A stretch of 64,000 nt of DNA, from IMG/VR virus record IMGVR_UViG_3300032235_000623, positions 44,850 to 108,849 of that record. The stretch is one strand, 5' to 3'. This DNA comes from a virus. Position numbers and translations under genes: made by a program. Below are positions 12,906-24,083 of this stretch, piece by piece (position 1 is the first letter of the stretch; every line of letters starts with the position of its first letter). The notes below the pieces were generated by a model. It saw only the letters and a list, made by a program, of their open reading frames with translations. It did not search any database and was not told the origin of the DNA.

Positions 12906-13313
12906 TTATGGACCAACTGTTGCAACTGCCTGGAAATGAGCTGTTTCTCCATGGTAGTCTCCATGTAGCCATTTCTTATCAGATTCTTGATATAGGTTCT
13001 CAATTGATTTAGTTTTATGTTGTTTTACATTAGGGATTTTGATATTATTAAATTCCCGCTTTTCTTTAACTAAGTTAATTGCTTTATGTAGGTTATTGGC
13101 TAGGATTAAGCCTTCGCTTGTATTGCCTTCCGCCAACTCAACATCATATCGTTGCTTCATTGAGAATACGATATTTACAACGAGTTCCATTACCTTATCA
13201 ACTGTATAAATTGGCTGATTAGATAAATGCCGTGCCACCGCTGCCGTGTTGAAGAAATGGTCTTCGACACATGAAGCAACTGTGTCTGCTAGTTTTGTTT
13301 CTCTTGGTTGCAT
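12906..13313 (-). CDS. Hypothetical protein
   Basis: The 135-residue product is helical in its first 95 residues (VASCVEDHFFNTAAVARHLSNQ...) with a His-rich C-terminal end. A ribosome-binding site AAAGG and a promoter of the block's shared type precede it. It is the last gene of the - strand block. Family not recognised. Confidence 0.6.
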   Translation of the reverse strand: MQPRETKLADTVASCVEDHFFNTAAVARHLSNQPIYTVDKVMELVVNIVFSMKQRYDVELAEGNTSEGLILANNLHKAINLVKEKREFNNIKIPNVKQHKTKSIENLYQESDKKWLHGDYHGETAHFQAVATVGP

Positions 13314-13342
13314 TTGTTTCCGCCTTTTCTATAGAACCGTTG

Positions 13343-13364
13343 ATTATATCAGAAAGGGCTGACT
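13343..13364 (-). promoter_or_regulatory. AGTCAG-N10-TATAAT promoter
   Basis: TATAAT (- strand, 13348-13343) is ten bases from AGTCAG (13364-13359), a variant of the block's TGTCAG box. The box lies inside the terminator hairpin of the upstream gene. Confidence 0.65.
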
Positions 13365-13377
13365 TGCGCCAGCCCTT
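13354..13377 (-). terminator. Hairpin terminator overlapping a promoter
   Basis: AAGGGCTG/CAGCCCTT, an 8-bp stem with 8-base loop followed by TTCT in the - direction, ends the gene at 13392. It contains the upstream box of the next promoter. Confidence 0.7.
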
Positions 13378-13391
13378 CCCACATTATGAGA

Positions 13392-13538
13392 TTACTTCTT
13401 TGAGCTTGGGGTTTCTGCTGTAAACTTGATACCCTGCTTCTCTGCCTCTGCAAGTACGTTCTTTGCAGCTGATGAGAAACGACCACGGCGGCCTACAGAG
13501 ATTCCCTTTGATACTAGATATTCACGCTTTGTTGTCAT
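13392..13538 (-). CDS. Small basic RGRF-motif protein (Lsr2-tail-like)
   Basis: The 48-residue product has REYLVSKGISVGRRGRFSSAAKNVL, close to the C-terminal DNA-binding motif (RGR) of actinobacterial Lsr2 and to tiny actinophage proteins of the same design. It could bind AT-rich DNA through the RGR loop. A canonical promoter (TTTACA-N17-TATAAT) and a GAAAGG ribosome-binding site drive it, unlike the rest of the block, so it may be expressed early. Confidence 0.65.
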   Translation of the reverse strand: MTTKREYLVSKGISVGRRGRFSSAAKNVLAEAEKQGIKFTAETPSSKK

Positions 13539-13571
13539 TTGATTTGATCCTTTCATGATCGGTTGTTATAT

Positions 13572-13602
13572 ATATTATATAAGATATTCACGAATTTGTA
13601 AA
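13572..13602 (-). promoter_or_regulatory. Canonical promoter TTTACA-N17-TATAAT
   Basis: On the - strand TTTACA is followed after 17 bases by TATAAT, upstream of the 13538 start. Positions are approximate to a few bases. This is a standard sigma70 spacing and lacks the TGTCAG box used by neighbours. Confidence 0.55.
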
Positions 13603-13664
13603 TACCCTCGTAACTATTTTTTTTATCCCTTATATGTTTATTTAGTTATATTAAATTAGTTATA

Positions 13665-13835
13665 TTAATTAACTAATTCGTAGTCATATGGGTCAATAGA
13701 GTTATCTATCTCTAATTGGATCCATTCTGTTCTATCTGCAGCATCAGCCTTTTCATAGGCCTCCTGCAAGCTTTCCGCCTCCACCTCCAGATAATACTTG
13801 TCTACAAGGTCTCCGAATATTTTGAATTTAGTCAT
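13665..13835 (-). CDS. Small beta-rich hypothetical protein
   Basis: The 56-residue product (MTKFKIFGDLVDKYYLEVEAESLQEAYEKADA) looks like a small alpha/beta DpdA-type or phage accessory domain with one strand pair and a helix. The ATG at 13835 follows GAGGAGGAAGAGG and overlaps the preceding stop region. Function unknown. Confidence 0.6.
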   Translation of the reverse strand: MTKFKIFGDLVDKYYLEVEAESLQEAYEKADAADRTEWIQLEIDNSIDPYDYELVN

Positions 13836-14157
13836 CCTCTTCCTCCTCATCTTCTTCAAACATTAAGTCTGTCATAATATCATTATCTGTCATCCAGTCA
13901 CGTACATCTTCGTAGTGCTGTTCTGCCCCGTATTCTAGAGAGAACCCGTGTCCGTTTTTAACAGACTCACACAGCCTGTCCCATACCTCATCCTCTGACA
14001 TCTCAAAGCGGTACTCCTCATCGGCCATAAAACCCTTGATTGTGCTCCAGGTCCATAGCCAAACCAGGGATAGCCCCAGGTCCGTTGTATCTAGGATATC
14101 GAGACATTGGTTTAGTTTATCTTTATCTTGTGGCTTCACGTTGCTTGGTCCTTTCAT
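13828..14157 (-). CDS. Acidic hypothetical protein
   Basis: The 109-residue product is acidic, ending in a run of Asp/Glu. A hydrophobic Trp-rich segment (LGLSLVWLWTWSTIKGF) sits at about 28-44. No known family. It overlaps both neighbours, so it is part of one translated unit beginning at 14413 or 14616. Confidence 0.6.
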   Translation of the reverse strand: MKGPSNVKPQDKDKLNQCLDILDTTDLGLSLVWLWTWSTIKGFMADEEYRFEMSEDEVWDRLCESVKNGHGFSLEYGAEQHYEDVRDWMTDNDIMTDLMFEEDEEEEDD

Positions 14158-14413
14158 TAATTGAGAATGCTAATTGATAAGTTAATCCATATACAGCAGT
14201 CAAGGCGTCCATATAGCCTTCGTTGTACAGCCGCTCCACAGTGTCATCGTAGTCTTCATCTGAGCCCAATTCATTTGAGTTCTGTAGAAGAGGAACGAGG
14301 ACCTGCTCGCATTCATACATCATGTTCTTCAATTCACCATGCAGAATGTCTGTCCCTGACTCACCAAGGTCGACGAGTTTCTGCAGGCGTGGTTCTAGTT
14401 CTGTAGTGTTCAT
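14123..14413 (-). CDS. Helical acidic hypothetical protein
   Basis: The 96-residue product is helical and acidic. Its ATG is six bases from the -10 box of a TGTCAG-type promoter, so its transcript would be leaderless. It also overlaps the stop of the upstream gene (ATGA), meaning it can be made both by coupling and from its own promoter. Confidence 0.65.
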   Translation of the reverse strand: MNTTELEPRLQKLVDLGESGTDILHGELKNMMYECEQVLVPLLQNSNELGSDEDYDDTVERLYNEGYMDALTAVYGLTYQLAFSINERTKQREATR

Positions 14414-14616
14414 TGGGCCATTATATCCTCTGCCACTGACAAAAAGTGGCGGGTAGCAATAATCTGTCCATTGATAGAGATATCCTCAATCTCTAAAGAC
14501 TGATACTCATTTGATTCCATTTCTTCAAATAAATCCATTTCAGCCTGTAGAGCCTCAGAATCTTGCTCTAAACTAATTAGATGTAACTTCATATATTCGA
14601 TTAATTGATTAGACAT
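14410..14616 (-). CDS. Helical hypothetical protein
   Basis: The 68-residue product is glutamate-rich and helical (LISLEQDSEALQAEMDLFEEME). Its stop overlaps the next start. An ATGAGGTAG leader supplies a plausible ribosome-binding site. Function unknown. Confidence 0.6.
   Translation of the reverse strand: MSNQLIEYMKLHLISLEQDSEALQAEMDLFEEMESNEYQSLEIEDISINGQIIATRHFLSVAEDIMAQ
14420..14441 (-). promoter_or_regulatory. TGTCAG-N10-TATAAT promoter, leaderless
   Basis: TATAAT (14425-14420) and TGTCAG (14441-14436) are ten bases apart, and the ATG at 14413 is six bases beyond the -10. A GCCACT/AGTGGC hairpin (14432-14450) overlaps the box. The promoter lies inside the upstream gene. Confidence 0.75.
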
Positions 14617-14722
14617 TTACTACCTCATATCTTTGAGTTAATCTATCATAATATCTAGCAGCCTGACATGTGCAACTAAATATACCTGGTACATCTGAAC
14701 ATTCCCATTTATGTTCATGCAT
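14609..14722 (-). CDS. Tiny Cys-containing protein
   Basis: The 37-residue product (MHEHKWECSDVPGIFSCTCQ...) has three Cys and two His, compatible with a zinc site. AGAAGGG precedes the ATG. The stop overlaps the following start. Confidence 0.5.
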   Translation of the reverse strand: MHEHKWECSDVPGIFSCTCQAARYYDRLTQRYEVVNV

Positions 14723-14879
14723 GATCGAAATACCCTTCTGCCCATAGGCCTTGTAAGAAATCATGAGCCATAACTAAATAATTATGAATTGCAGGATTAT
14801 CATCAGCATTGACCAATAGGTCAGCTTGATAAACACCATACGTCATATCTGCTAAATCTTTTTGTGTGTAGCCCAACAT
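14715..14879 (-). CDS. Small hypothetical protein
   Basis: The 54-residue product starts MLGYTQKDLADMTYGVYQAD. The ATG at 14879 is chosen because it overlaps the upstream stop as TAATG; a longer frame from 14933 would overlap that gene heavily. It is alpha-helical. Function unknown. Confidence 0.6.
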   Translation of the reverse strand: MLGYTQKDLADMTYGVYQADLLVNADDNPAIHNYLVMAHDFLQGLWAEGYFDHA

Positions 14880-15046
14880 TATTTTACTTCCCAATACTCT
14901 AGTATTAGATTTAATGCAGAATGGATATTGCAATCACAATCCCCACCCATGTTATCCATAAATTCTAGATGACTATAATTGTCATCATAGATTTCATCTA
15001 CTAATTGACCTACTGTCATTGCTCTTAGTTTGCTAATAGTTCTCAT
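14879..15046 (-). CDS. Small acidic hypothetical protein
   Basis: The 55-residue product (MRTISKLRAMTVGQLVDEIYDD... CDCN) is acidic and ends in a hydrophobic helix (HSALNLILEYWEVK). It overlaps both neighbouring genes by a few bases, typical of this densely packed unit. Confidence 0.6.
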   Translation of the reverse strand: MRTISKLRAMTVGQLVDEIYDDNYSHLEFMDNMGGDCDCNIHSALNLILEYWEVK

Positions 15047-15816
15047 GCTTCCACCTTTTCTGTAGATTCCAATAATACACTATGGGTCTGACATTCTTTC
15101 ATAGCCTCTTCATCCTGCCAAGAGCCTTGGTTGCATTCTGAGCAGAATTCACCACAGTCATCTTCACAATAATCTAATGTATTAAATGATTGGCAAGCAT
15201 AGCAGCGATTCTCATATTCTAGAATCTCTTTTACTTCACCACGGACAATCTCATATTCCCCACCCCAACCTGTTTCTTCCTCATACTCCAATGTGAGCAG
15301 GCAGTTTGGAACAAGATTAGATAGTTTAGTTAGAATAGTTACAGCAGGTGACCATGCAGTCTCATATTTATAGACAACCCAGTTGTCATCACCATCTGAC
15401 TTATATTCAATTATTTCTGTGTTTGGATACTTGTCATCATCAGATACAGCCACATCCCATTTGGTGCCCCAATTAGAATTATTCCATGAGTACCAATCCT
15501 TTTGAGTCTTAGCAAACTCAACAGATTTAGCAAACCAATTAGGGTCCTTCATATCTACACCATCACGTGCAGGCTGGCAGGCATACTCCTCATCAGTAAT
15601 ACCTTCATCTTTATATGAGTGGATATTAAAGAAAGCAAAGACAGGATTAGAATAAGTTACTTCTTTAAATTTGGTGGGGAAACCCATAGATGAAATATCA
15701 CCCATACCATGTGTCTCAATAGCCAATGTAAAAGGCTTATTCAATCTATCTTTAATCATATCTACCTCAGACTTAGGTCCTTGGATAGTCAATGTGTTAT
15801 ATACCCAATTTGGCAT
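15043..15816 (-). CDS. Api92/DUF1281-like phage protein
   Basis: The 257-residue product starts MPNWVYNTLTIQG, the signature of the Api92-like ferredoxin-fold family of phage and plasmid proteins. It has an aromatic, acidic central part (WSPAVTILTKLSN) and a C-terminal zinc-like region with about eight Cys (CYACQSF... CEDDCGEFCSEC). The ATG at 15816 overlaps the upstream stop (TAATG). Function in the family is unknown. Confidence 0.7.
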   Translation of the reverse strand: MPNWVYNTLTIQGPKSEVDMIKDRLNKPFTLAIETHGMGDISSMGFPTKFKEVTYSNPVFAFFNIHSYKDEGITDEEYACQPARDGVDMKDPNWFAKSVEFAKTQKDWYSWNNSNWGTKWDVAVSDDDKYPNTEIIEYKSDGDDNWVVYKYETAWSPAVTILTKLSNLVPNCLLTLEYEEETGWGGEYEIVRGEVKEILEYENRCYACQSFNTLDYCEDDCGEFCSECNQGSWQDEEAMKECQTHSVLLESTEKVEA

Positions 15817-15977
15817 TATCGGCACACTCGCTTTGTTACATATTTGTAATATGTATATGCTTTAGAAGATTTATCCTTAACTTGATATCTCTTATATGTA
15901 CATACCTCAGCATTTGCTGGGGCGGAAACAATAGGAAGTAATCCTAGTATAATACCTGCGATAATAGTTTTACGCAT
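15816..15977 (-). CDS. Small secreted Tyr/Lys-rich protein
   Basis: The 53-residue product has a clear signal peptide (MRKTIIAGIILGLLPIVSAPANA) and a short basic mature part with two Cys (CTYKRYQ... VCR) that could form a disulfide. Export would place it in the envelope or medium. It has a TGTCGG-type promoter and AAAGGA before the ATG at 15977. Superinfection exclusion or envelope binding is possible. Confidence 0.7.
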   Translation of the reverse strand: MRKTIIAGIILGLLPIVSAPANAEVCTYKRYQVKDKSSKAYTYYKYVTKRVCR

Positions 15978-16004
15978 TTTATATCCTTTCGTTGATATAA
16001 GAGA

Positions 16005-16026
16005 ATTATACATTGGACCACCGACA
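16005..16026 (-). promoter_or_regulatory. TGTCGG-N10-TATAAT promoter
   Basis: TATAAT (16010-16005) with TGTCGG (16026-16021) ten bases upstream, serving the secreted protein and the Api92-like gene. Confidence 0.75.
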
Positions 16027-16060
16027 AATGGAATAGATATGCTGTGTGAATTGGACCACA

Positions 16061-16134
16061 TTGTTAGGTTTTGATCAAAGCTTGTTAGGTTTAATTAGAT
16101 CTATTGTTAGATTTTATCAATCATTGTTAGGTTT
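16061..16134. repeat. Four TTGTTAGGTTT iterons
   Basis: Copies begin at 16061, 16082, 16104 (TTGTTAGATTT) and 16124, spaced 21, 22 and 20 bp, about two helical turns. They sit between a promoter and a TGTGA-N6-TCACA dyad. They could bind a phage initiator or regulator. Confidence 0.75.
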
Positions 16135-16149
16135 GTGGTCAATATCACA
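16134..16149. promoter_or_regulatory. Crp/GlxR-like dyad
   Basis: TGTGGTCAATATCACA, one mismatch from TGTGA-N6-TCACA, directly abutting a copy of the dispersed 31-bp element. Confidence 0.55.
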
Positions 16150-16223
16150 GAATTTCAGGAGATTTTGACTTGACCTCGTAAAAGAAATAATGTACTCTCT
16201 TGTCTTTGTGGGCATAAAAAGAT

Positions 16224-16254
16224 CCCCCGCCGATACCGCAGTATCAAGCGGGGG
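16224..16254 (-). terminator. Strong terminator
   Basis: CCCCCGC/GCGGGGG encloses GATAC/GTATC and is followed by ATCTTTTT in the - direction. It would end the transcript that passes 16370-16255. Confidence 0.85.
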
Positions 16255-16370
16255 AATTATAGTAGGGCTGCCTGGCCAAACGAAAGGAATTAAGTAAATG
16301 CCTGCGTACTTAGCGACTTGGCGAATGCCTTAGTAGCCGCACCCCACATCCAAAGACAAACTAGTTGCCT
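16224..16370 (-). ncRNA. Candidate structured non-coding RNA
   Basis: An extended -10 (TGATATAAT, - strand, ending at 16377) follows the stop region of the 16383 gene, and a strong terminator ends the segment about 150 bases later. No ORF fills it. The RNA is GC-richer than the surroundings and folds locally: GCGGCU with AGUCGC encloses GGC-AUUC-GCC. It could instead be a long 3' UTR. Confidence 0.5.
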
Positions 16371-16376
16371 AGGATT

Positions 16377-16385
16377 ATTATATCA
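16377..16385 (-). promoter_or_regulatory. Extended -10 TGATATAAT
   Basis: TGA-TATAAT on the - strand, matching the extended -10 words before 36472 and 41340. It overlaps the stop codon of the 16383 gene. Confidence 0.45.
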
Positions 16386-16787
16386 TACTGGAAGAAGTTC
16401 GTCCGAATACTTTTCACAGAATGCGGACAGGTCCATGGTAAATAAAGCCTCATTCTTCATTCCACGTACCTTGTTTGACTGATTCCTAAAGTCATCTTGC
16501 TCATGAAGACTAAAGGTTTGGTCCTTCCAATTAATTACAGGAATCTTGTGCTCATTGTCTGATAGAGAGTTGACCTGTAGACCCCAGCCAGTCTCCATAT
16601 TCCATTGGTCACCAATTAGACGTGATGTAGCAATGCGTGTTGCATATGAATCATCGTTCCAACGTGCTCGTGCATGGACTACAGCATCCGCTAAATTCTT
16701 TAGCATGTCATAGCCAGCCCAGTGTCCGTATAGTACAATTGTCTCTCCGCTATCCTGTACGAATACGAAGTTTGCTCTGTTACCCAT
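16383..16787 (-). CDS. Conserved phage hypothetical (MGNRANFVF)
   Basis: The 134-residue product begins MGNRANFVFVQDSGETIVLYGHWAGYDM, a start I associate with a recurrent family of actinophage proteins of unknown role. It is alpha/beta with a Trp-rich middle. It is coupled with the DUF7455-like gene upstream, with one base between them. Confidence 0.65.
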   Translation of the reverse strand: MGNRANFVFVQDSGETIVLYGHWAGYDMLKNLADAVVHARARWNDDSYATRIATSRLIGDQWNMETGWGLQVNSLSDNEHKIPVINWKDQTFSLHEQDDFRNQSNKVRGMKNEALFTMDLSAFCEKYSDELLPV

Positions 16788-16788
16788 T

Positions 16789-16995
16789 TTATTCCGCCGT
16801 TTCTAGTTGAGGTGTTTCTTCTGTCTTATTCAATTCTATAATTTCATATGACACCTTGTCAAGTGCCTCTTTATTTTTATTGTAGTGGTGCCCGCAGAAA
16901 GCTAGCTCGCCTTCTACTAATTTAATTAAATACATAGCTTGGGCGGACCCACATTGGTCGCAGCCAATCCATCTATTTAAATCGTCTGTGCTCAT
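16789..16995 (-). CDS. DUF7455-like zinc protein
   Basis: The 68-residue product shows CDQCGSAQAMYLIKLVEGELAFCGHHYNK arranged as the CDxC...CGHH pattern of the actinobacterial DUF7455 family. The four ligands probably bind zinc. Members are widespread in Actinobacteria and their phages, supporting the host inference. The start overlaps the upstream stop. Confidence 0.75.
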   Translation of the reverse strand: MSTDDLNRWIGCDQCGSAQAMYLIKLVEGELAFCGHHYNKNKEALDKVSYEIIELNKTEETPQLETAE

Positions 16996-17138
16996 ATATT
17001 ATTCTCTTCGATCATATCAGCAAGACGGTCAAGCAACCAGGTATCGATATCGTTAATATCAATCTCTCGTAACTTTTCTATGATTTCTTCACGAGCAAAT
17101 TTATACCCGTCATCAAATCCATCTTTATAATCTGACAT
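16992..17138 (-). CDS. Small acidic helical protein
   Basis: The 48-residue product (MSDYKDGFDDGYKFAREEIIEKLREI...) is a charged helical peptide. The DGFDDGYKFAREE start is common in small phage proteins. AGGAG-like sequence (TAGGAGATAAT) precedes the ATG. Function unknown. Confidence 0.6.
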   Translation of the reverse strand: MSDYKDGFDDGYKFAREEIIEKLREIDINDIDTWLLDRLADMIEENNI

Positions 17139-17146
17139 ATTATCTC

Positions 17147-17350
17147 CTAATAACCTGTTGTTTCATATTCGCTAAAATAAGTTTCAGTTAAGTTAAACTT
17201 ATCTCTAATGCGACTTACTTTCTCAATACTACCAGTTCCAATGTTGAAAGTCAACGGTCCAATTAGTTGAGGGTCAAGTCCAGTTATCTCGGCATCCCAG
17301 AAGGCCCTTTGCAGGGCCAACTGAGATGGAGCGGTGAGTTCAAAATACAT
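17147..17350 (-). CDS. Small hypothetical protein
   Basis: The 67-residue product (MYFELTAPSQLALQRAFWDAEITGLDPQ...) appears alpha/beta. Its ATG overlaps the stop of the 17350 gene, so it is coupled. No family is recognised. Confidence 0.6.
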   Translation of the reverse strand: MYFELTAPSQLALQRAFWDAEITGLDPQLIGPLTFNIGTGSIEKVSRIRDKFNLTETYFSEYETTGY

Positions 17351-17814
17351 TAGTAAGCCTCACGAACATGGCAGACTTCTTGCTCATCAATAACGATGTT
17401 GCCATCCTGTGCATCGACATATAGCGCATCTGTAATTTCTGATTCAAGGTCATAATCTTCTAATAGATTTAGTGTAATTGTTCCGCTAACTTCAACAGTT
17501 GCGGTAAATTCCACATCCTTGGTTAATTCAATGCCAAGCGCTTCAGCAATTGACTGCAAAGTATCTTGGTCGTCTGAATCAGCATATGACTCAAGAATAA
17601 TATCTTTAACTGTATTAATCTTAGACTGAAGCAGGCTAACAGTTTTCTGTGACTGTCGTCCATTGTGCAGGTCCCACTCAAGAGATGCAACCTTTGATGT
17701 TGTATATTCAGGGTCAGAATATCCGTGAATAACTTTATATGTAACTAGTAAATCAGGATTGTAAGCAACTGCAGGTGAATGAAATGCATCTGAGCCAATT
17801 GTTGTTGTTTCCAT
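17350..17814 (-). CDS. Internal-start form (METTTIGSDAF)
   Basis: An in-frame ATG at 17814 has its own TGTCAG-N10-TACAAT promoter (17846-17867) and a GAAAGAGGAAA ribosome-binding site. It gives a 154-residue protein without the Cys-rich part. The remainder is acidic with beta and helix segments (VEVSGTITLNLLEDYDLE). Two products from one frame are therefore likely. Confidence 0.6.
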   Translation of the reverse strand: METTTIGSDAFHSPAVAYNPDLLVTYKVIHGYSDPEYTTSKVASLEWDLHNGRQSQKTVSLLQSKINTVKDIILESYADSDDQDTLQSIAEALGIELTKDVEFTATVEVSGTITLNLLEDYDLESEITDALYVDAQDGNIVIDEQEVCHVREAY

Positions 17815-18006
17815 CGTTTCCTCTTTCGTTGTAGTTATAGGTGGTATTGTAGCATCTTCCACTGACAATAATGTGCAATTAGAGTTGCAACGACATGTGA
17901 GGTCCATCACACCCGCTGGCCATCCATATCCATCTTTAATTGTATATTCGATTAAAGCATCACAGTCTCCCGTGCATACCCAGGTGTATTTCTGATATGT
18001 TGTCAT
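17350..18006 (-). CDS. Cys-rich N-terminal form of a nested gene
   Basis: Starting at ATG 18006 the frame gives 218 residues: an N-terminal zinc-like domain (WVCTGDCDALIEY... TCRCNSNC) followed in frame by the product of the internal start at 17814. A TGTCAG-N10-TACAAT promoter ends seven bases before the ATG, so the long form should be leaderless. The Cys motif occurs in actinophage proteins of unknown role. Confidence 0.6.
   Translation of the reverse strand: MTTYQKYTWVCTGDCDALIEYTIKDGYGWPAGVMDLTCRCNSNCTLLSVEDATIPPITTTKEETMETTTIGSDAFHSPAVAYNPDLLVTYKVIHGYSDPEYTTSKVASLEWDLHNGRQSQKTVSLLQSKINTVKDIILESYADSDDQDTLQSIAEALGIELTKDVEFTATVEVSGTITLNLLEDYDLESEITDALYVDAQDGNIVIDEQEVCHVREAY
17846..17867 (-). 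promoter_or_regulatory. TGTCAG-N10-TACAAT promoter (internal)
   Basis: TACAAT (17851-17846) and TGTCAG (17867-17862) are ten bases apart inside the coding region of the long form and drive the internal start at 17814. Confidence 0.7.
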
Positions 18007-18013
18007 GGCGAGT

Positions 18014-18035
18014 ATTGTACAGGACCCCACTGACA
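18014..18035 (-). promoter_or_regulatory. TGTCAG-N10-TACAAT promoter
   Basis: TACAAT (18019-18014) and TGTCAG (18035-18030). The ATG at 18006 is seven bases after the -10, so the mRNA is nearly leaderless. Confidence 0.75.
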
Positions 18036-18062
18036 TTTACAAGGATTTTCGGGAAAAAGCTT

Positions 18063-18078
18063 TGTGATACGTAACACA
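18063..18078. promoter_or_regulatory. Crp/GlxR-like dyad
   Basis: TGTGATACGTAACACA, a near match to TGTGA-N6-TCACA, 27 bp upstream of the TGTCAG box at 18035. Confidence 0.5.
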
Positions 18079-18131
18079 TTTTTTTGGCCTTCAGATCTGG
18101 GGGCATCTCATTATCTGAGATTCAAATCTTG

Positions 18132-18205
18132 CGATCTGTATGGGACTTGAACCCACGACCTCTACCGTGACAGGGTAGCGCTCTAACCAACTGAGCTAAC
18201 AGACC
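18132..18205 (-). tRNA. tRNA-Asp(GUC)
   Basis: The 74-nt - strand sequence folds as a full cloverleaf: acceptor GGTCTGT/ACAGATC, D-stem GCTC/GAGC, anticodon stem CTACC/GGTAG with loop CTGTCAC (anticodon GTC), T-arm GTGGG-TTCAAGT-CCCAT and discriminator G. CCA is not encoded. It lies between the DUF932 gene and the nested gene. Confidence 0.95.
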
Positions 18206-18211
18206 AAATGG

Positions 18212-18234
18212 TGAGCAGTTTTAAATCTTGCTCA
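18212..18234 (-). terminator. Hairpin between DUF932 gene and tRNA
   Basis: TGAGCA/TGCTCA with an 11-base loop. It has no U-tract in the - direction, so it may be a processing site and not a terminator. Confidence 0.35.
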
Positions 18235-18246
18235 GGATTTTATTAT

Positions 18247-19254
18247 TTAGAAGGCTTTAACCAACTTCATAATTTTATTTTTTTCTGCAGTTAAGATTGG
18301 GTCAAAACCGCTTGCACCCGCCATTAGGGATTCAGAATTTCCACGTGATGTGCGGAAATAATCTAGACGTTCAGTTAGCGCATTGAATGCACCCCACTTT
18401 GTGCCCTTGATATTAGCGTTAGTTGGTGAGTTATGATACAAGTCATCAAGAAGAACAACTTTGTTTTCCCACTTTGTGAGAGCAATTTTAGATGCATCTT
18501 CTTTTGGCTTTGGATAAATTGTCTGAATCAACTTTGAAAATTCGGCGTTAGTAATCTCTTGCTTGAAGAGTTCCTGCGCTTCTTTTTCAAATTCATCAAA
18601 GTAACCAAGTGCAAGACCAAGAGTCTCACGAGCAACTTGAATGCGACCTTCTACAGATTGCGTGTGGCGAATCTTGAAAGATTGCTTTGCATTACGCATT
18701 GCAAGATTCAAAGTGTTTTGGCATACAACACGAACAGGGGTAATTGCTGCTTGAACAGCAACAGAACCGTCGTGTGATGTCCATACAATTAAATAAAGTT
18801 TAGTTGCATCGTTAGCGCCTTGTGGGTCAAGCACCATTGTGCGAGGAATATCCACAGTGCCGAAAACAACTTTGCCCTTTTTCAATGAGCCAGCAGATTC
18901 CCAACGGCAGTCAGCGTTGGCATCATGAATTGCATCAGCGAATGCAAACAATTCTTCATTCTGCACAGGCTTGTAGCGCTTTCCAACAGTTGCAAGAACA
19001 TCAGTCCCGCCATTGAATGGATTAGTGCGAACAACTAAAGATGAATTTGAAACATCGTTCCAAGATTCGTCAATGTGATTTGTGATTGGAGATAAACGAA
19101 CATCCCAATTTGCTAACTTTGCTTCTTCAAGCATTGTTGCAGTTGTAACTTCCTCATCTTGTGAGAAGATACGATTTGCAAGGTTGTGCCATGCAGGAGC
19201 GCCACGAAGAGCAAATGCAACTTCGCCGTTTTCGACTTCGAGATTGTGAGCCAT
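18247..19254 (-). CDS. DUF932 phage/plasmid-like protein
   Basis: The 335-residue product matches the DUF932 (phage/plasmid-like, TIGR03299) family: MAHNLEVENGEVAFALRGAPAWH at the start, then RYKPVQNEELFAFADAI and TPVRVVCQNTLNLAM in the middle. The role in the family is unclear, although it is often near replication or transfer genes. The ATG at 19254 follows a GAAAGGAAAA ribosome-binding site and the shared promoter type. It is the largest gene of the - strand block. Confidence 0.88.
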   Translation of the reverse strand: MAHNLEVENGEVAFALRGAPAWHNLANRIFSQDEEVTTATMLEEAKLANWDVRLSPITNHIDESWNDVSNSSLVVRTNPFNGGTDVLATVGKRYKPVQNEELFAFADAIHDANADCRWESAGSLKKGKVVFGTVDIPRTMVLDPQGANDATKLYLIVWTSHDGSVAVQAAITPVRVVCQNTLNLAMRNAKQSFKIRHTQSVEGRIQVARETLGLALGYFDEFEKEAQELFKQEITNAEFSKLIQTIYPKPKEDASKIALTKWENKVVLLDDLYHNSPTNANIKGTKWGAFNALTERLDYFRTSRGNSESLMAGASGFDPILTAEKNKIMKLVKAF

Positions 19255-19284
19255 ATTTTTTCCTTTCGGTTGATTGATTTGGCA

Positions 19285-19306
19285 ATTATAGCAGGGGGGT
19301 CTGACA
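19285..19306 (-). promoter_or_regulatory. TGTCAG-N10-TATAAT promoter
   Basis: TATAAT (19290-19285) and TGTCAG (19306-19301), ten bases apart, upstream of the DUF932 gene. Confidence 0.8.
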
Positions 19307-19344
19307 TTGTAAAGGATTAAAGATAAGATGTCCGAATTGTCTAA

Positions 19345-19360
19345 CGTGATCAATCTCACA
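19345..19360. promoter_or_regulatory. Crp/GlxR-like dyad
   Basis: CGTGATCAATCTCACA, one mismatch from TGTGA-N6-TCACA, 38 bp upstream of the promoter box and immediately next to the dispersed 31-bp element. Confidence 0.6.
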
Positions 19361-19372
19361 AAATTTTGGGAG

Positions 19373-19404
19373 TTTTCCACAGCTCGTCGTAAGCCTGTGG
19401 ATAA
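19373..19404. other. Inverted DnaA-box pair
   Basis: TTTTCCACA (19373-19381) and TGTGGATAA (19396-19404, the complement of TTATCCACA) face each other. A similar pair is at 21569-21599. DnaA binding is plausible but the pair could also act as a hairpin. Confidence 0.5.
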
Positions 19405-19461
19405 CCCCTCAGTTGTTGCGGGCACAATTTGAGGGGCGGGAAAAAGATCCCGCCCCAAGCT

Positions 19462-19719
19462 TTAAACTAGTCCCAACTCTTCAGAAGTTAGTTTATATTT
19501 ATTGTGTTTGTTTACTGTTTCCATTGGTAGAAAGATTGCTAGCGTCTTCTGCTTCTTCTTATTATCATAAACATAAGCACGAACAGTGCCAGCAAATCTA
19601 CGTAGGTTTGAGAATACCATTTCAGATAGATATTCTCTATTTACTCCCTCATCAGAATAAATAGTTAAATCATTTGCTTTGTTATCATCATAGATTTCAA
19701 CTCTAAAACGATTTTTCAT
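19462..19719 (-). CDS. Hypothetical protein
   Basis: The 85-residue product starts MKNRFRVEIYDDNKANDLTIY and is beta-rich in its first half (an IYDD...VYDN repeat-like strand pattern). CAGAAAGTAATC precedes the ATG as a weak ribosome-binding site. I do not see the TGTCAG promoter here. No family is recognised. Confidence 0.6.
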   Translation of the reverse strand: MKNRFRVEIYDDNKANDLTIYSDEGVNREYLSEMVFSNLRRFAGTVRAYVYDNKKKQKTLAIFLPMETVNKHNKYKLTSEELGLV

Positions 19720-19813
19720 TTGATTACTTTCTGTTAGTAGTTATTTTGGTTGAGCAGTTTAGCACTTGACTTACTCAGGTCAGGGTTCTTTTGCTTTAGA
19801 GTATTCTAACATA

Positions 19814-19837
19814 GGGGGCTAGTTTTGTCTAGCCCCC
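19814..19837 (-). terminator. Perfect 9-bp hairpin, probable terminator
   Basis: GGGGGCTAG (19814-19822) pairs with CTAGCCCCC (19829-19837). It follows the stop of the 19844 gene on the - strand; the U-tract is poor. Confidence 0.6.
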
Positions 19838-19843
19838 ATTTTA

Positions 19844-20260
19844 TTAGAGATACTTAGCAATTTGCTTCATAGTAGAAGCATTTACTGTTTCCTCATCTGT
19901 CATCTTGAGAATTGTTAGGGCATTTGTGATGTCCTCTACAATTTCATTGTATGTGTGTTGGTGCATGATTGTGAAATCACGCTCAGGCTCTTTAGGGAAA
20001 TCGCTTTCCTTTACAATTAAATCAAAATCAACATTGAGAGAGTTGTTCCAAGAGCGATAGTTTGTGCGGAAGTTTTCAGCCTTCTTGATGTTTGCAATAG
20101 CAAAATCCTGAACTTCCTTACGCCACTTTTCTCTTGACTTCTCATACTTCGCTTCGTTTGCACCCTGCTCAGCATAGTCTTTCTTGATTGTTGCCAACTT
20201 TGTTTCCAAAGCCTTGATTACCTTTGGTGTTGCCACCTTTACTGTGATTGCTCTTGACAT
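19844..20260 (-). CDS. Coiled-coil hypothetical protein
   Basis: The 138-residue product (MSRAITVKVATPKVIKALETKLATIKKDY...) is basic and helical through residue 70 and then acidic. The ATG at 20260 follows an AAAAGGAAAAA ribosome-binding site. The design suggests an assembly or DNA-associated factor, but no family is identified. Confidence 0.6.
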   Translation of the reverse strand: MSRAITVKVATPKVIKALETKLATIKKDYAEQGANEAKYEKSREKWRKEVQDFAIANIKKAENFRTNYRSWNNSLNVDFDLIVKESDFPKEPERDFTIMHQHTYNEIVEDITNALTILKMTDEETVNASTMKQIAKYL

Positions 20261-20291
20261 AGTTTTTCCTTTTCTATTTGGTTGAGGTTTT

Positions 20292-20313
20292 AGTATAACA
20301 TAGGGGTCTGACA
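20292..20313 (-). promoter_or_regulatory. TGTCAG-N10-TATACT promoter
   Basis: TATACT (20297-20292) and TGTCAG (20313-20308). GGGGT/ACCCC flanks the box, making a small hairpin whose loop holds it. Confidence 0.75.
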
Positions 20314-20388
20314 AACCCCGTAGGGTGAGAGTTCTTACTTACGACATTGGGCGAGAACACTCTCTAAACTGCCCCTGTTTCGATTTAC

Positions 20389-20532
20389 TTACTCAGCGTA
20401 TGCAGAAGTCCAACGCTCTGTGCCATTTACATCTAGCAAGATACGATTAACTCCGCTTGGGTGATTATCAACCGCTTTGATAATACCTGTGATACCGCTT
20501 GCTGTTGTTGTGTATGTCTGACCGATTTCCAT
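20389..20532 (-). CDS. Small beta-barrel-like protein
   Basis: The 47-residue product (MEIGQTYTTTASGITGIIKAV... RILLDVNGTERWT) looks like a small SH3-like beta barrel. A GGAGAAAC ribosome-binding site precedes the ATG at 20532. Similar small barrels in actinophages have no known role. Confidence 0.6.
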   Translation of the reverse strand: MEIGQTYTTTASGITGIIKAVDNHPSGVNRILLDVNGTERWTSAYAE

Positions 20533-20562
20533 TTGTTTCTCCTTTGTTTGTTTGTTGGTAGT

Positions 20563-20584
20563 ATTATAGCCTATGCCACTGACA
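20563..20584 (-). promoter_or_regulatory. TGTCAG-N10-TATAAT promoter
   Basis: TATAAT (20568-20563) and TGTCAG (20584-20579), upstream of the gene at 20532. It lies at the end of the neighbouring coding region. Confidence 0.75.
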
Positions 20585-20587
20585 TTT

Positions 20588-20875
20588 TTAGTCTTCTTCG
20601 GTGTAATCTTCCTCACACCAGGCGCTTAGGTGGTGCTGTTCAATAATTGCCCAGGCAGGCGCTGTATCCATGCCTCGATAAGATACTCCTTCAGGCATTG
20701 AGATTTCACGATTTAGATCGTCTTCCCAGTATGCATCTATAGCATCTATGCAAGGTTGCACCATTGATAGCGGGACGGGTGGATAGTGATTACCCTGTAA
20801 GTGATAACCAATTGAAGCTTCTAGGCTTAAGCCCAATTCATCTGTTGCTAATTCATAAGCAAGATTACTTCCCAT
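20588..20875 (-). CDS. Acidic hypothetical protein
   Basis: The 95-residue product is acidic with a Pro/Tyr-rich middle (GYHLQGNHYPPVPLSMVQPCIDAIDAYW is its visible pattern from about residue 22) and a DxxxEED tail. This family recurs in actinophages as a hypothetical protein. It overlaps the 20865 gene by eleven bases. Confidence 0.6.
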   Translation of the reverse strand: MGSNLAYELATDELGLSLEASIGYHLQGNHYPPVPLSMVQPCIDAIDAYWEDDLNREISMPEGVSYRGMDTAPAWAIIEQHHLSAWCEEDYTEED

Positions 20876-21137
20876 TTATAACCTCGTTTCCAATAGTTTC
20901 CATTTCGTCAATAGACTCCATAAGTTCTTTTACTTGACTTTCGGTAAGTAGAATTTTAGTTGCCTTATCTACTGCAAGGCTAGCGATAGCGCATGAGTAA
21001 AGATAAATTCCTTTAGCAAATTCTTCATTACTCATTTCGTTATGATTATGTGTTAGGTATCCAGCAAGCCCCATAACTTCTTCGTCCATTATAGAGTCGC
21101 TAGTTGCTTCGATTAGAGCATAAGCGGTTGATAGCAT
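20865..21137 (-). CDS. Helical hypothetical protein
   Basis: The 90-residue product is helical and acidic (MLSTAYALIEATSDSIMDEEVMGLAGY...). It has a GAAAGGGAAAAA ribosome-binding site and the shared promoter type. Its gene is co-transcribed with 20588. Function unknown. Confidence 0.6.
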   Translation of the reverse strand: MLSTAYALIEATSDSIMDEEVMGLAGYLTHNHNEMSNEEFAKGIYLYSCAIASLAVDKATKILLTESQVKELMESIDEMETIGNEVINGK

Positions 21138-21163
21138 TTTTTCCCTTTCGTTTGTTTTATGGA

Positions 21164-21185
21164 ATTATAGCAGGTGGGTCTGACA
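21164..21185 (-). promoter_or_regulatory. TGTCAG-N10-TATAAT promoter
   Basis: TATAAT (21169-21164) and TGTCAG (21185-21180). The box lies across the loop of a perfect 10-bp hairpin (21173-21197). Confidence 0.8.
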
Positions 21186-21197
21186 AGCAGACCCACC
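21173..21197 (-). terminator. Hairpin fused to a promoter
   Basis: GGTGGGTCTG (21173-21182) pairs perfectly with CAGACCCACC (21188-21197). It follows the 21205 gene and overlaps the promoter of the next gene. Confidence 0.65.
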
Positions 21198-21204
21198 CTA
21201 TCAA

Positions 21205-21456
21205 TTATGCTAGGGCTATGTAAGCCTGAGAGTAGCCTTCATTTACACGGTCAAGTTCATCCTGAATTTCAGACTTAGACATTAGAGAAACTTTGCCGAT
21301 TAACTCACGAATAGCGCCTTCGTTCATCTGATTAAAGATAGCGGTTGGCATTTTGCTTACTTGCTGATACATTGAACCTTCGATATCCAGTTTAGATACG
21401 AATTCTACGCCATCAACTGTGAATGGAAATAATGCCCATCTAGTCATATCTTTCAT
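21205..21456 (-). CDS. Hypothetical protein
   Basis: The 83-residue product (MKDMTRWALFPFTVDGVEFVSKLDIEG...) has a beta-rich start and a helical, Met-rich remainder. A GAAAGGTAAAAC ribosome-binding site is present. It opens a unit read from the promoter at 21487-21508. Confidence 0.6.
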   Translation of the reverse strand: MKDMTRWALFPFTVDGVEFVSKLDIEGSMYQQVSKMPTAIFNQMNEGAIRELIGKVSLMSKSEIQDELDRVNEGYSQAYIALA

Positions 21457-21486
21457 TGTTTTACCTTTCGTTTGTGTTATGCGAGT

Positions 21487-21508
21487 ATTATAGCGGAATG
21501 CTCTGACA
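21487..21508 (-). promoter_or_regulatory. TGTCAG-N10-TATAAT promoter
   Basis: TATAAT (21492-21487) and TGTCAG (21508-21503), with a Crp-like dyad 34 bp further upstream. Confidence 0.8.
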
Positions 21509-21541
21509 AATCATAATCCATTTACGGCGTGTCGCAGCTTT

Positions 21542-21557
21542 TGTGATAAACCTCACA
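21542..21557. promoter_or_regulatory. Crp/GlxR-like dyad
   Basis: TGTGATAAACCTCACA matches TGTGA-N6-TCACA perfectly. It abuts a copy of the dispersed 31-bp element and the DnaA-box pair. Confidence 0.7.
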
Positions 21558-21568
21558 AATTTTCAGGG

Positions 21569-21599
21569 TTTTCCACAGGTACCCGTAAATTGTGGATAA
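21569..21599. other. Inverted DnaA-box pair
   Basis: TTTTCCACA (21569-21577) and TGTGGATAA (21591-21599) repeat the arrangement at 19373, including flanking ACCC and a following GCGGGCA word. Confidence 0.5.
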
Positions 21600-21636
21600 C
21601 CCCCACGCCTTTGCGGGCATTTAGTTGAAATTTCAA

Positions 21637-21792
21637 CTAATTAAAAAATGGAGCTACAAGATCACAATAAGTTTTTAAATATTTTTCTTTTTTGTGTTTT
21701 GTTTTGCGTGTGTATTTTTTCTTTGAGGGGATCGGAGTCGCCGCATTACTGCGGCGCAACTCCTGAACCTTCTTTACTTTTTCTGTTGCCAT
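21637..21792 (-). CDS. Small very basic protein
   Basis: The 51-residue product is Lys/Arg-rich (KKYTRKTKHKKEKYLK), suggesting nucleic-acid binding. The ATG at 21792 follows GAGAGGATAAA and the frame continues to a stop just before the DnaA-box region. Function unknown. Confidence 0.55.
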   Translation of the reverse strand: MATEKVKKVQELRRSNAATPIPSKKKYTRKTKHKKEKYLKTYCDLVAPFFN

Positions 21793-21793
21793 T

Positions 21794-21991
21794 TTATCCT
21801 CTCGAATTAAAACTAGGAACTTGATAACCACTCGCCTCATGAAATTTTGTTACGTTAAAATTTGGATTTTCTTTTGCACACAATTCTGAAAAATCTAAAA
21901 CCATTTTAGAAAAAACAGCGGGATGAGTTTTGTTAGAATTATACTTAAGAATTTCAGCGATAGCCTCGAAGTGCTTGCGTGTCATTGTCAT
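21794..21991 (-). CDS. Small hypothetical protein (TRKHFEAIAEILK)
   Basis: The 65-residue product begins MTMTRKHFEAIAEILKYN, a start that recurs in many actinophage small proteins. It is helical with a conserved His-Phe. The stop lies next to the basic gene's ATG and the start overlaps the 21988 stop. Role unknown. Confidence 0.65.
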   Translation of the reverse strand: MTMTRKHFEAIAEILKYNSNKTHPAVFSKMVLDFSELCAKENPNFNVTKFHEASGYQVPSFNSRG

Positions 21992-22194
21992 ACTGTTACA
22001 ACCTTTCGTCCTTCACGATAGAAAATTTTTGTGTAGCATTTTGCAGATGGTGTAAAGATATTTACAGTTGAGTATTCGTTAGCGAAACCCCAATCTGTGA
22101 AAGCAAAAAAATCTTTCCATGCTGCCATTTCATCATCATATTCATGAGACCAATGCGGAGCATTTGAATCATAAGCCAAAGTAATTTTATACAT
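21988..22194 (-). CDS. Small hypothetical protein
   Basis: The 68-residue product (MYKITLAYDSNAPHWSHEYDDEMAAWKDFFAF...) is aromatic and alpha/beta. The ATG at 22194 overlaps the preceding stop as TAATG. A longer frame to 22221 is rejected for that reason. Confidence 0.6.
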   Translation of the reverse strand: MYKITLAYDSNAPHWSHEYDDEMAAWKDFFAFTDWGFANEYSTVNIFTPSAKCYTKIFYREGRKVVTV

Positions 22195-22325
22195 TAGATA
22201 TTCCAATCGTCTAGAGCACACTCACACGCTTCTACATCATAATTATTTTCATCTCCCCAAAATAGGAAACCTGCACCACCGCACTCATCACAAGCAACGG
22301 CAATAATTTCTTTTAAGTCTGACAT
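22194..22325 (-). CDS. Tiny DnaJ-like zinc protein
   Basis: The 43-residue product has CDECGGAGF and a later CEC, like one half of a DnaJ zinc finger. GGAAAACTA precedes the ATG. It is driven by the TGTCGG-type promoter at 22353-22374 or coupled to the upstream ORF. Confidence 0.55.
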   Translation of the reverse strand: MSDLKEIIAVACDECGGAGFLFWGDENNYDVEACECALDDWNI

Positions 22326-22438
22326 TAGTTTTCCTTTCGTTCTGTTGTTGAAATTGTAGCAGATAGCACCGACAAGGCTTCGGATTTGCTTGCTTGGCGT
22401 GTCGCTAGGATATGAGCCTTAAATTCTTCTAGGTTCAT
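22325..22438 (-). CDS. Possible 37-residue protein
   Basis: The frame MNLEEFKAHILATRQASKSE... overlaps both neighbours as TAATG. It contains the promoter of the next gene, so either it is real with an embedded promoter or it is a chance frame. Confidence 0.4.
   Translation of the reverse strand: MNLEEFKAHILATRQASKSEALSVLSATISTTERKEN
22353..22374 (-). promoter_or_regulatory. TGTCGG-N10-TACAAT promoter
   Basis: TACAAT (22358-22353) and TGTCGG (22374-22369), upstream of the zinc protein at 22325. Confidence 0.7.
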
Positions 22439-22560
22439 TAGAGAGCACCTTCCTGAAATAACTCGATTTCGATATCTAACTTTTTTTCATCTGATAATTC
22501 ATCGAACGAAACCCAGCCTGCGCCTTCTTCGTCCATTTTAAAAAATTCAATGTATCCCAT
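22438..22560 (-). CDS. Small acidic protein
   Basis: The 40-residue product (MGYIEFFKMDEEGAGWVSFDE...) is acidic and amphipathic. It lies between coupled small genes. Function unknown. Confidence 0.5.
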   Translation of the reverse strand: MGYIEFFKMDEEGAGWVSFDELSDEKKLDIEIELFQEGAL

Positions 22561-22562
22561 TA

Positions 22563-22766
22563 TTATTCACCTACCTTTACTGCAACTGTTCGGAAAGTTG
22601 TGCGGAAAGAGTTTTTAGGTTGAACCTCGACAAGATAAGAATCGCAACCTTCATACCAAACCGCTTTAGGGTGAGGTTCTGCGTTAATGATAATTCCCTC
22701 AAGAGTCTTTGAGAAATATTGCTTACCTACTAAGAGGTTCTGGACTGAATATACATTTGCTGACAT
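22563..22766 (-). CDS. Small beta-rich protein
   Basis: The 67-residue product (MSANVYSVQNLLVGKQYFSKTLEGIIINAEPHP...) is beta-rich and resembles the design of the 20389 protein (a turn-rich barrel). The ATG at 22766 follows CGAAAGGCGGAC. It has the shared promoter type. Function unknown. Confidence 0.6.
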   Translation of the reverse strand: MSANVYSVQNLLVGKQYFSKTLEGIIINAEPHPKAVWYEGCDSYLVEVQPKNSFRTTFRTVAVKVGE

Positions 22767-22799
22767 GGTGTCCGCCTTTCGTTTGTTTCTATATCTGGA

Positions 22800-22821
22800 A
22801 TTATACACGAACGGACTGACA
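22800..22821 (-). promoter_or_regulatory. TGTCAG-N10-TATAAT promoter
   Basis: TATAAT (22805-22800) and TGTCAG (22821-22816), with two Crp-like dyads 48 and 71 bp upstream. Confidence 0.8.
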
Positions 22822-22868
22822 TTTTCCAATTTGGCAAGGGTTTGTCTCAATATGTGGAGCGTGGGCTA

Positions 22869-22884
22869 TGTGATAAGCATCACA
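22869..22884. promoter_or_regulatory. Crp/GlxR-like dyad 1
   Basis: TGTGATAAGCATCACA, a perfect TGTGAT-N4-ATCACA palindrome, first of a tandem pair 23 bp apart. Confidence 0.7.
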
Positions 22885-22891
22885 CGCCTAA

Positions 22892-22907
22892 TGTGATAAC
22901 CATCACA
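22892..22907. promoter_or_regulatory. Crp/GlxR-like dyad 2
   Basis: TGTGATAACCATCACA, second of the tandem pair. The intergenic region here carries no gene. Confidence 0.7.
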
Positions 22908-22926
22908 CCAAAATGTCCGTTTTGTC

Positions 22927-23038
22927 TGTCAAATCGACACGCCGTAGAATTTGGGGCTTTTGATAACGATTACGTAACGACACGCCCGACGCCGCAGTAT
23001 TTGCGGGCCAGCTTGATTTTGTCAAGTCGACACGCCGT
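22927..23038. repeat. TGTCAA(A/G)TCGACACGCCGT direct repeats
   Basis: Nineteen-base copies begin at 22927 and 23020, with a shorter CGACACGCCCG at 22978. Related GGCGTGTCGC words occur at about 21525 and 22396. They lie in a gene-free regulatory region. Confidence 0.6.
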
Positions 23039-23041
23039 TAG

Positions 23042-23164
23042 TTAGCGAAAATCTTTTATGACTTCCCTCACATCTTGTTTTAATTCGTGCCACATCATGC
23101 GCCCCATATATAGGGCGGGGATCGCAAGGGCTAATTGTACTAGTGTGGTTAGTAGTCTATTCAT
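23042..23164 (-). CDS. Small membrane-anchored protein
   Basis: The 40-residue product has a hydrophobic N-terminal half (LLTTLVQLALAIPALYMG) and a charged tail. Its start overlaps the upstream stop (TAATG). It may be a single-pass membrane peptide. Confidence 0.55.
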   Translation of the reverse strand: MNRLLTTLVQLALAIPALYMGRMMWHELKQDVREVIKDFR

Positions 23165-23352
23165 TACTTATCTCCAAACATATCGAAAACTTCATCTAGT
23201 TGTTCATCTGTTAAGTGGTCAATACTAATAGCCTTAGTAAATCCGAACACATCTTCTTCTTCTGCCATTAGATTTTCATACATTTCTTCTTCTGCTAGGT
23301 GTGCGTACTGGTCGCTTACATCTGCTTGAATAGTATCCCATTTAGTCATCAT
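23164..23352 (-). CDS. Acidic hypothetical protein
   Basis: The 62-residue product is rich in Asp, Glu and Met (AEEEMYENLMAEEEDVFGF). It overlaps both neighbours. Such acidic proteins can be DNA mimics, but no evidence is available here. Confidence 0.6.
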   Translation of the reverse strand: MMTKWDTIQADVSDQYAHLAEEEMYENLMAEEEDVFGFTKAISIDHLTDEQLDEVFDMFGDK

Positions 23353-23507
23353 TACTTATTTACCTCTACTTCTCTAACGATAAAGGAAAACCCTTTACCT
23401 AATTTGTTTAGTTCTTCAATTACGGCTAAGATTTCTTCGGGCTTATTAGCCTTGTTATTAACGCTTAGTAGTTGAGAGCCTTGCCATAGTGAGTAAGTGA
23501 TAGTCAT
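23352..23507 (-). CDS. Small hypothetical protein
   Basis: The 51-residue product (MTITYSLWQGSQLLSVNNKANKPEEILAVIEELN...) has a strand-helix pattern. It starts after a CGAAAGAAGAAAAC ribosome-binding site and overlaps the next gene. Function unknown. Confidence 0.55.
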   Translation of the reverse strand: MTITYSLWQGSQLLSVNNKANKPEEILAVIEELNKLGKGFSFIVREVEVNK

Positions 23508-23543
23508 TCGTTTTCTTCTTTCGTTAGTTTGTTTAATAAGATT

Positions 23544-23565
23544 AAGGTACTACATAGGGCTGACA
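23544..23565 (-). promoter_or_regulatory. TGTCAG-N10-TACCTT promoter (weak -10)
   Basis: TGTCAG (23565-23560) is ten bases from TACCTT (23549-23544), a poorer -10 than in the other copies. A Crp-like dyad starts 28 bp upstream. Confidence 0.55.
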
Positions 23566-23593
23566 TTTGCAACCCTAAAGGGGGTGTGTTGCG

Positions 23594-23609
23594 TGTGAGT
23601 TACCTCACA
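23594..23609. promoter_or_regulatory. Crp/GlxR-like dyad
   Basis: TGTGAGTTACCTCACA fits TGTGA-N6-TCACA exactly. It overlaps the stop codon of the 23605 gene. Confidence 0.6.
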
Positions 23610-23760
23610 GGCAGTTTATACACTCACAACCCTTAGAGCGGATAAGGTAGGCTAACACCTCTTTACGGGTATAAGCGTCTAGACCATAGGAGGACTTAAC
23701 GCCTCCATTGTGGTATTCATGCACGATAGTGCTAAATAGTGTTTCTGTTAGTTGAGTCAT
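23605..23760 (-). CDS. Small hypothetical protein
   Basis: The 51-residue product (MTQLTETLFSTIVHEYHNGGVKSSYGLDAYT...) ends CECINCL. The ATG at 23760 follows CGAAAGGAGTCACAA. No promoter of the shared type is seen immediately upstream, so it may be read from 24062-24083. Confidence 0.6.
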   Translation of the reverse strand: MTQLTETLFSTIVHEYHNGGVKSSYGLDAYTRKEVLAYLIRSKGCECINCL

Positions 23761-23830
23761 TTGTGACTCCTTTCGTTTATTTATTAGGATAATCTTTTCA
23801 TACTTATTTAATTTTTTCAAGTCTATTTGG

Positions 23831-23846
23831 TGTGGTGTCTATCACA
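23831..23846. promoter_or_regulatory. Crp/GlxR-like dyad
   Basis: TGTGGTGTCTATCACA, one mismatch from consensus, spanning the stop of the 23842 gene. Confidence 0.45.
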
Positions 23847-24012
23847 CTAGGCTAGGGGACTTATCGTAGGTGTAGCCTACGCCTGTCTCATAGTATGCGA
23901 ACATCTGTTCGGTTTTATGAGTTCTATCTACTGTGCAGAACATGTCCTGCGGTTCGCCTGTCCAATTACAGGAGAGGCACTTACTTACTAGGTGTGATAA
24001 TACTTTTGTCAT
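23842..24012 (-). CDS. Small CxxC protein
   Basis: The 56-residue product has CLSCNWTGEPQDMFC near residues 12-26, a plausible zinc site. It is the first gene of the - strand block. Ribosome-binding site AGAAAGGTCAGAAA precedes the ATG. Function unknown. Confidence 0.6.
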   Translation of the reverse strand: MTKVLSHLVSKCLSCNWTGEPQDMFCTVDRTHKTEQMFAYYETGVGYTYDKSPSLV

Positions 24013-24061
24013 TTTCTGACCTTTCTAGTTAATCACCTTGATTAACTTTCTTTATACTATA

Positions 24062-24083
24062 ATCATATAACGGGGGTCTGACA
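24062..24083 (-). promoter_or_regulatory. TGTCAG-N10-TATGAT promoter
   Basis: TATGAT (24067-24062) and TGTCAG (24083-24078). This is the right-most promoter of the block. Confidence 0.75.

Follow-up and report, generated by a model that had tools for sequence, protein, structure and literature searches.

A 64,000-nucleotide stretch of the IMG/VR virus record IMGVR_UViG_3300032235_000623 (positions 44,850 to 108,849 of the record; hereafter the window, with positions counted from its first letter) carries on its minus strand about 35 genes, most of them small, that form one block (12906-24012) and are served by promoters of the form TGTCRG-N10-TANNNT. We conclude that the fifteen sites of this form are very probably sigma-A promoters of the PafBC type, also called the RecA-independent DNA-damage class (RecA-NDp), which would be read by the PafBC of the host and would make the block switchable by single-stranded DNA (ssDNA). 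The initial annotation had described a new, phage-specific promoter; we replace this by a class of host promoters that is already known and that a group of phages has apparently taken over.

All fourteen sites of the initial annotation were recovered at their left ends and on their strand, with box, ten-base gap and -10 element matching, and a fifteenth was added at 15072-15093 (TGTCAGACCCATAGTGTATTAT; TGTCAG-N10-TATTAT, minus strand, start codon 25 nt downstream), which had been left out of the first list because its -10 reads TATTAT. The fifteen span 13343-24083 on the minus strand and each stands just 5' of a gene of the one block, with none elsewhere in the 108,849-bp record. The block's first promoter (24062-24083, TGTCAG-N10-TATGAT) has its start codon 50 nt past the -10 and is followed by one with a weak -10 (23544-23565, TGTCAG-N10-TACCTT), an element common to the recA promoters of the acI bacteria considered below. 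TGTCAG-N10-TATAAT recurs at 22800-22821, 21487-21508, 21164-21185 and 20563-20584, TGTCAG-N10-TATACT occurs at 20292-20313 and TGTCAG-N10-TACAAT at 17846-17867, and the form in which R is G is found at 22353-22374 (TGTCGG-N10-TACAAT) and 16005-16026 (TGTCGG-N10-TATAAT). The site at 19285-19306 is the promoter of a gene for a DUF932 protein (335 aa, 18247-19254, minus strand). The block's last promoter, at 13343-13364 (AGTCAG-N10-TATAAT), has the least typical box, the other fourteen all carrying TGTCRG.

At these promoters the -10 is usually preceded by TGn (an extended -10), and every site has a start codon 3' of it, which lies 25-50 nt past the -10 with a GAAAGG-like Shine-Dalgarno sequence except at two. 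These two promoters, at 18014-18035 (ATG 7 nt past the -10 TACAAT) and 14420-14441 (ATG 6 nt past the -10 TATAAT), have the layout expected of leaderless mRNAs and are predicted to produce them; the same layout is seen at 16 of 135 sites in relatives. As for the annotated claim that the motif controls the whole block, most transcription units do carry the box, but several inner genes have none themselves and stand behind another gene. At four promoters a perfect or near-perfect hairpin includes the box as its right arm (minus strand, 21164-21200, 20292-20319, 14420-14450 and 13343-13375), as though terminator and promoter overlapped; the hairpin at 21164 is perfect (GGTGGGTCTG-CTTGT-CAGACCCACC) and that at 20292 is terminator-like.

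The fourteen annotated sites were turned into a weight matrix, and the complete record was scanned with it on both strands, an analysis of genome and relatives that the initial annotation had proposed. The scan returned 15 matches with scores of at least 16.9, all in the block and 5' of genes, and the next-best match in the genome scored 12.1. Ten simulated genomes (Markov-1, dinucleotide-like) gave at most one or two matches above 12 to 17 each, with a maximum of 17.7, and the reversed pattern had 0 matches in this record.

The motif was equally confined in close relatives, which are IMG/VR contigs. Among the records of 33 relatives, most of those that hold the block gave 9-16 matches per record, grouped on a single strand; the reversed control gave 0-2 per strand. 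Within 11 blocks from relatives, the gap from TGTCRG to the -10 was 10 nt in 135 cases, no other single length occurred in more than 14, and the boxes of a block were always on one strand. The 135 distinct sites give the profile AAW-TGTCRG-W-SS-N5-TGn-TANAAT, with the box fixed except for R (G, hence TGTCGG, in 32 of 135) and with TG at -15/-14 in 68-76%, although TG was not part of the search pattern. Past the box, 70% of sites have T at -22 and 47% have G at -21, ACC and TCC variants being common. No -35 is conserved (no position from -36 to -32 exceeds 0.19 bit; a 4-of-6 match to a -35 by position in 31 of 135), and an ordinary sigma70 -35/-10 promoter was rejected as a general reading on this ground. 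Upstream of the DUF932 orthologues, 26 of 27 distinct regions retain the box while their spacers diverge. The 27th, in the divergent contig G071 (L265, IMGVR_UViG_3300012665_000621), has TTGACA-N17-GACAAT instead; this contig holds 25 boxes, about 20 of them with the fuller consensus TGTCAGTGG. Contigs whose portal identity is as low as 51% still have about ten boxes. The initial annotation is borne out in describing a shared class of activator-type promoters that lack a conserved -35, have their box near -26 and are confined to one block and one strand.

This description coincides with a published promoter class. In Mycobacterium, DNA-damage promoters that do not depend on RecA have the consensus tTGTCRgtg-8nt-TannnT (PMC5656591), which, counted from TGTCRG, leaves exactly N10 to TANNNT and is therefore equal to the phage motif. 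The binding sites of PafBC in M. smegmatis closely resemble that consensus, and the promoter has been found in other actinobacteria too (PMC8223512). The helix-turn-helix of PafB reads the -26 motif, PafC takes the place of the -35 contact by binding domain 4 of sigma-A, and PafBC is activated by ssDNA that binds its WYL domains (PMC11804915). The phage sites and the RecA-NDp promoters have in common TGTCRG, ten bases to TANNNT, a sigma-A type -10 and the lack of a conserved -35. The phage sites differ in their stronger extended -10 (TGnTATAAT), in the bases past the box (T/A then CC or GG, not always TGG), and in their number: about 15 lie within 11 kb, and the small phage genes that they serve are mostly unknown. 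Judged by sequence, the promoter class is itself already known, namely the actinobacterial RecA-NDp. The initial annotation had taken a phage activator or a modified sigma factor as the simplest explanation, which gives way here because the box, the R at position 5 and the spacing equal those of the published PafBC promoter; its comparison with a MotA-like appropriation of sigma fits what this class is known for. No listed title or abstract in the literature searched, which lay mostly outside subscription journals, reports phage promoters of the PafBC class, nor did we find there a phage that runs an entire block through them.

On the strength of the phage's appearance as a low-GC actinophage of fresh water, acI (Nanopelagicales) was taken as the candidate host group, and seven acI genomes, six of them complete, were chosen through a published 16S probe. 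TGTCAG-N10-TACCTT was found 5' of recA, directly beside an SOS box, in five of the seven; the recA open reading frame was read downstream in four, and the fifth (L166) showed the near-identical promoter and the SOS box, without the frame being picked up. In two acI genomes the box lies 24 nt before carD. When the phage matrix was applied to the six complete genomes, a carD, recA or island site ranked first in five. An adjacent pair of WYL genes (pafB and pafC) was present in all six, each with one match to HTH_PafC. In one annotated acI genome the best PDB matches of the WYL pair are the solved PafB and PafC structures, including PafBC-RNA polymerase complexes, and TrmI and TatC adjoin the pair; the PafB helix RMFERDK is nearly unchanged in the acI pair examined. 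The island referred to lies on the IMCC19121 chromosome (about 822.7-825.4 kb; L170:6774-10252), where six PafBC-type boxes occur within 2.6 kb, and is probably a mobile island under the same control. One of its 22-mers is identical to a phage site of relative G029, and a common origin of island and phages was rejected, since only weak protein matches (22-28%) were seen.

Readers made by the phage were also looked for. No WYL protein of the PafB/PafC type was found in this phage or in 21 relatives, and neither MotA nor AsiA was among the families listed in Pfam scans of 80 phage proteins (one list giving 25 of 52 families). A phage sigma factor was rejected, as only sigma-4-like stretches below the cut-off were detected (17.9 and 15.2 bits, against 24.1). 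The phage-specific reader of the initial annotation thus fares poorly beside candidate hosts that own PafB and PafC and have the box in front of recA and carD. The idea that SOS (LexA) control is generally superimposed on the block was likewise rejected, the exact box occurring in only 3 of 11 blocks. The sole exact CGAACN4GTTCG box in the phage (CGAACATCTGTTCG, window 23898-23911) is the reverse complement of the core of the acI recA SOS box; it lies inside a coding frame and may therefore be chance. As in the phage, exact SOS boxes stand about 150-165 nt past the first block promoter in two relatives (L090:11041; L096:11408).

The block has a counterpart among Streptomyces phages. Its DUF932 protein is 46-51% identical to the product of a gene at the left ends of Streptomyces phages of the family Stanwilliamsviridae (about 51% for the Boydwoodruffvirinae), in whose records the gene has two places, i.e. 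in terminal repeats, and for this reason the block probably corresponds to the terminal-repeat region of those phages. The prohead protease is about 48-50% identical to that of Streptomyces phages of the family Stanwilliamsviridae, and gene order is as in that family (minus-strand small-gene block, transglycosylase, ribonucleotide reductase, portal, protease, capsid); the structural region had no near DNA matches in named phages. The left 11 kb of the Streptomyces phages L181, L183, L185 and L186 have block promoters of the form GGG-TTGnnn-N17/18-TAGACT, with a weak TGYCCY at the equivalent -28 position. We take the habitat of the phage and its relatives to be fresh water, judging by the sample numbers. 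The phage also encodes a WhiB family protein, WhiB being taken as an actinophage marker (PMC10202952). Further phage genes specify RecA, pyrimidine dimer glycosylase, cytochrome P450, a luciferase-like monooxygenase, a carbamoyltransferase, an NMN (nicotinamide mononucleotide) transporter and Hsp20; RecA and the pyrimidine dimer glycosylase are consistent with a sunlit, DNA-damaging habitat.

Among other explanations of the sites, the one with most to recommend it is an activator encoded by the phage, a helix-turn-helix or WhiB protein that would read TGTCAG and appropriate sigma-A in the manner of T4 MotA/AsiA, the likeness to the host box being mimicry or coincidence. The phage does encode a WhiB family protein, weak helix-turn-helix matches and the sub-threshold sigma-4-like stretches, and the TGYCCY of the Streptomyces relatives may be a vestige of a phage regulator that is diverging. 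Such an activator would, however, have had to copy the box, the R ambiguity and the spacing of a system already present in the candidate hosts; none of the candidate genes of the phage has a link to the block, and the box is present at the candidate host's own recA. We therefore regard this explanation as unlikely.

Mycobacteriophage stoperators are also many near-identical sites, and the arrangement of one near-identical site per promoter might suggest that TGTCAG is mainly the operator of a repressor or superinfection-immunity protein acting on ordinary extended -10 promoters. A repressor site needs no exact spacing, though, and a fixed gap to the -10 without a conserved -35 suits an activator better; the box is moreover not palindromic, and an operator role appears highly improbable. 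Least credible of all is that the sites arose by chance or form an RNA or translation element of repeated leaders (a hairpin or start-associated sequence). The overlap of boxes with hairpins at 21164, 20292, 14420 and 13343 and the shared leader AACGAAAGG speak for such an element, but most sites have no hairpin and at the leaderless sites the box is upstream of the presumed transcript. Hardly any matches arise in simulated genomes or with reversed patterns, and strand, spacing and block statistics in relatives largely refute both variants.

Several observations weigh against host PafBC as the reader. Past the phage box, ACC or TCC is as frequent as TGG, while the published motif has gtg. In related Streptomyces phages the promoters of the matching block are sigma-A-like (TTG..TAGACT), despite the reported wide distribution of PafBC among actinobacteria. 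The phage's own WhiB and helix-turn-helix proteins are possible alternative readers. On the host side, acI is a candidate suggested by the freshwater, low-GC actinophage look of the virus and not a proven host; recA ranks only third by the phage matrix in IMCC26103; and the sites on acI chromosomes exceed the control count by only a few, so that the host regulon looks small or more degenerate.

With these points taken into account, the best reading is still that a lytic actinophage has placed a small-gene, terminal-repeat-like block under a host ssDNA-sensing activator that reprograms sigma-A; host PafBC as reader, ssDNA as signal, the timing and the acI host are what we infer from the sequences. 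Sigma-A RNA polymerase would bind the extended -10 and, with no -35 to hold, wait there weakly. Single-stranded DNA from phage replication or recombination, from breakdown of host DNA or from UV damage would load host PafBC, the PafB helix-turn-helix would read TGTCRG at about -28 to -23, and PafC would bridge to domain 4 of sigma-A. As the polymerase would wait until ssDNA-loaded PafBC arrives, the whole small-gene block would be turned on together as a unit by ssDNA.

A wider proposal, to which we give about an even chance, is that lytic freshwater actinophages of a widespread group use PafBC, the ssDNA sensor of the host, as a timer of infection stage. The block would then be a single PafBC regulon denser than that of the host (15 sites within 11 kb, where the host has about a dozen pattern matches in 1.4 Mb), and infection would thereby also draw PafBC and RNA polymerase away from the repair of host DNA. 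In mycobacteria PafBC, itself activated by ssDNA, is the chief activator in response to DNA damage, and a phage group that seemingly makes it the master switch of a block offers a direct test of phage timing by ssDNA sensing. The sites supply more than 100 natural PafBC-type promoters, suggest a defined regulatory target in the phages of a bacterial group that is among the most abundant in fresh water, and provide a sequence signature for recognizing such phages and perhaps their hosts.

Besides the RecA-NDp promoters, three known systems are closest to this arrangement. The Stanwilliamsviridae (Samistivirus, Coruscantvirus) have homologous structural genes and a matching left-end minus-strand small-gene block with one promoter per gene, but those promoters are of the TTGnnn..TAGACT type, and TGTCRG boxes in the Streptomyces relatives are at control level, with none above it. 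Phage promoters under LexA (SOS) control likewise let a phage read the DNA-damage state of its host; here, the mode would be activation by PafBC instead of LexA derepression, in a lytic-looking phage and over a whole block. The middle promoters of T4 (MotA box, AsiA) also have an activator box near -30 in place of a -35 and a redirected sigma region 4. The T4 MotA box differs in sequence from the TGTCRG box, and the activator proposed here, unlike that of T4, would be owned by the host and would sense ssDNA.

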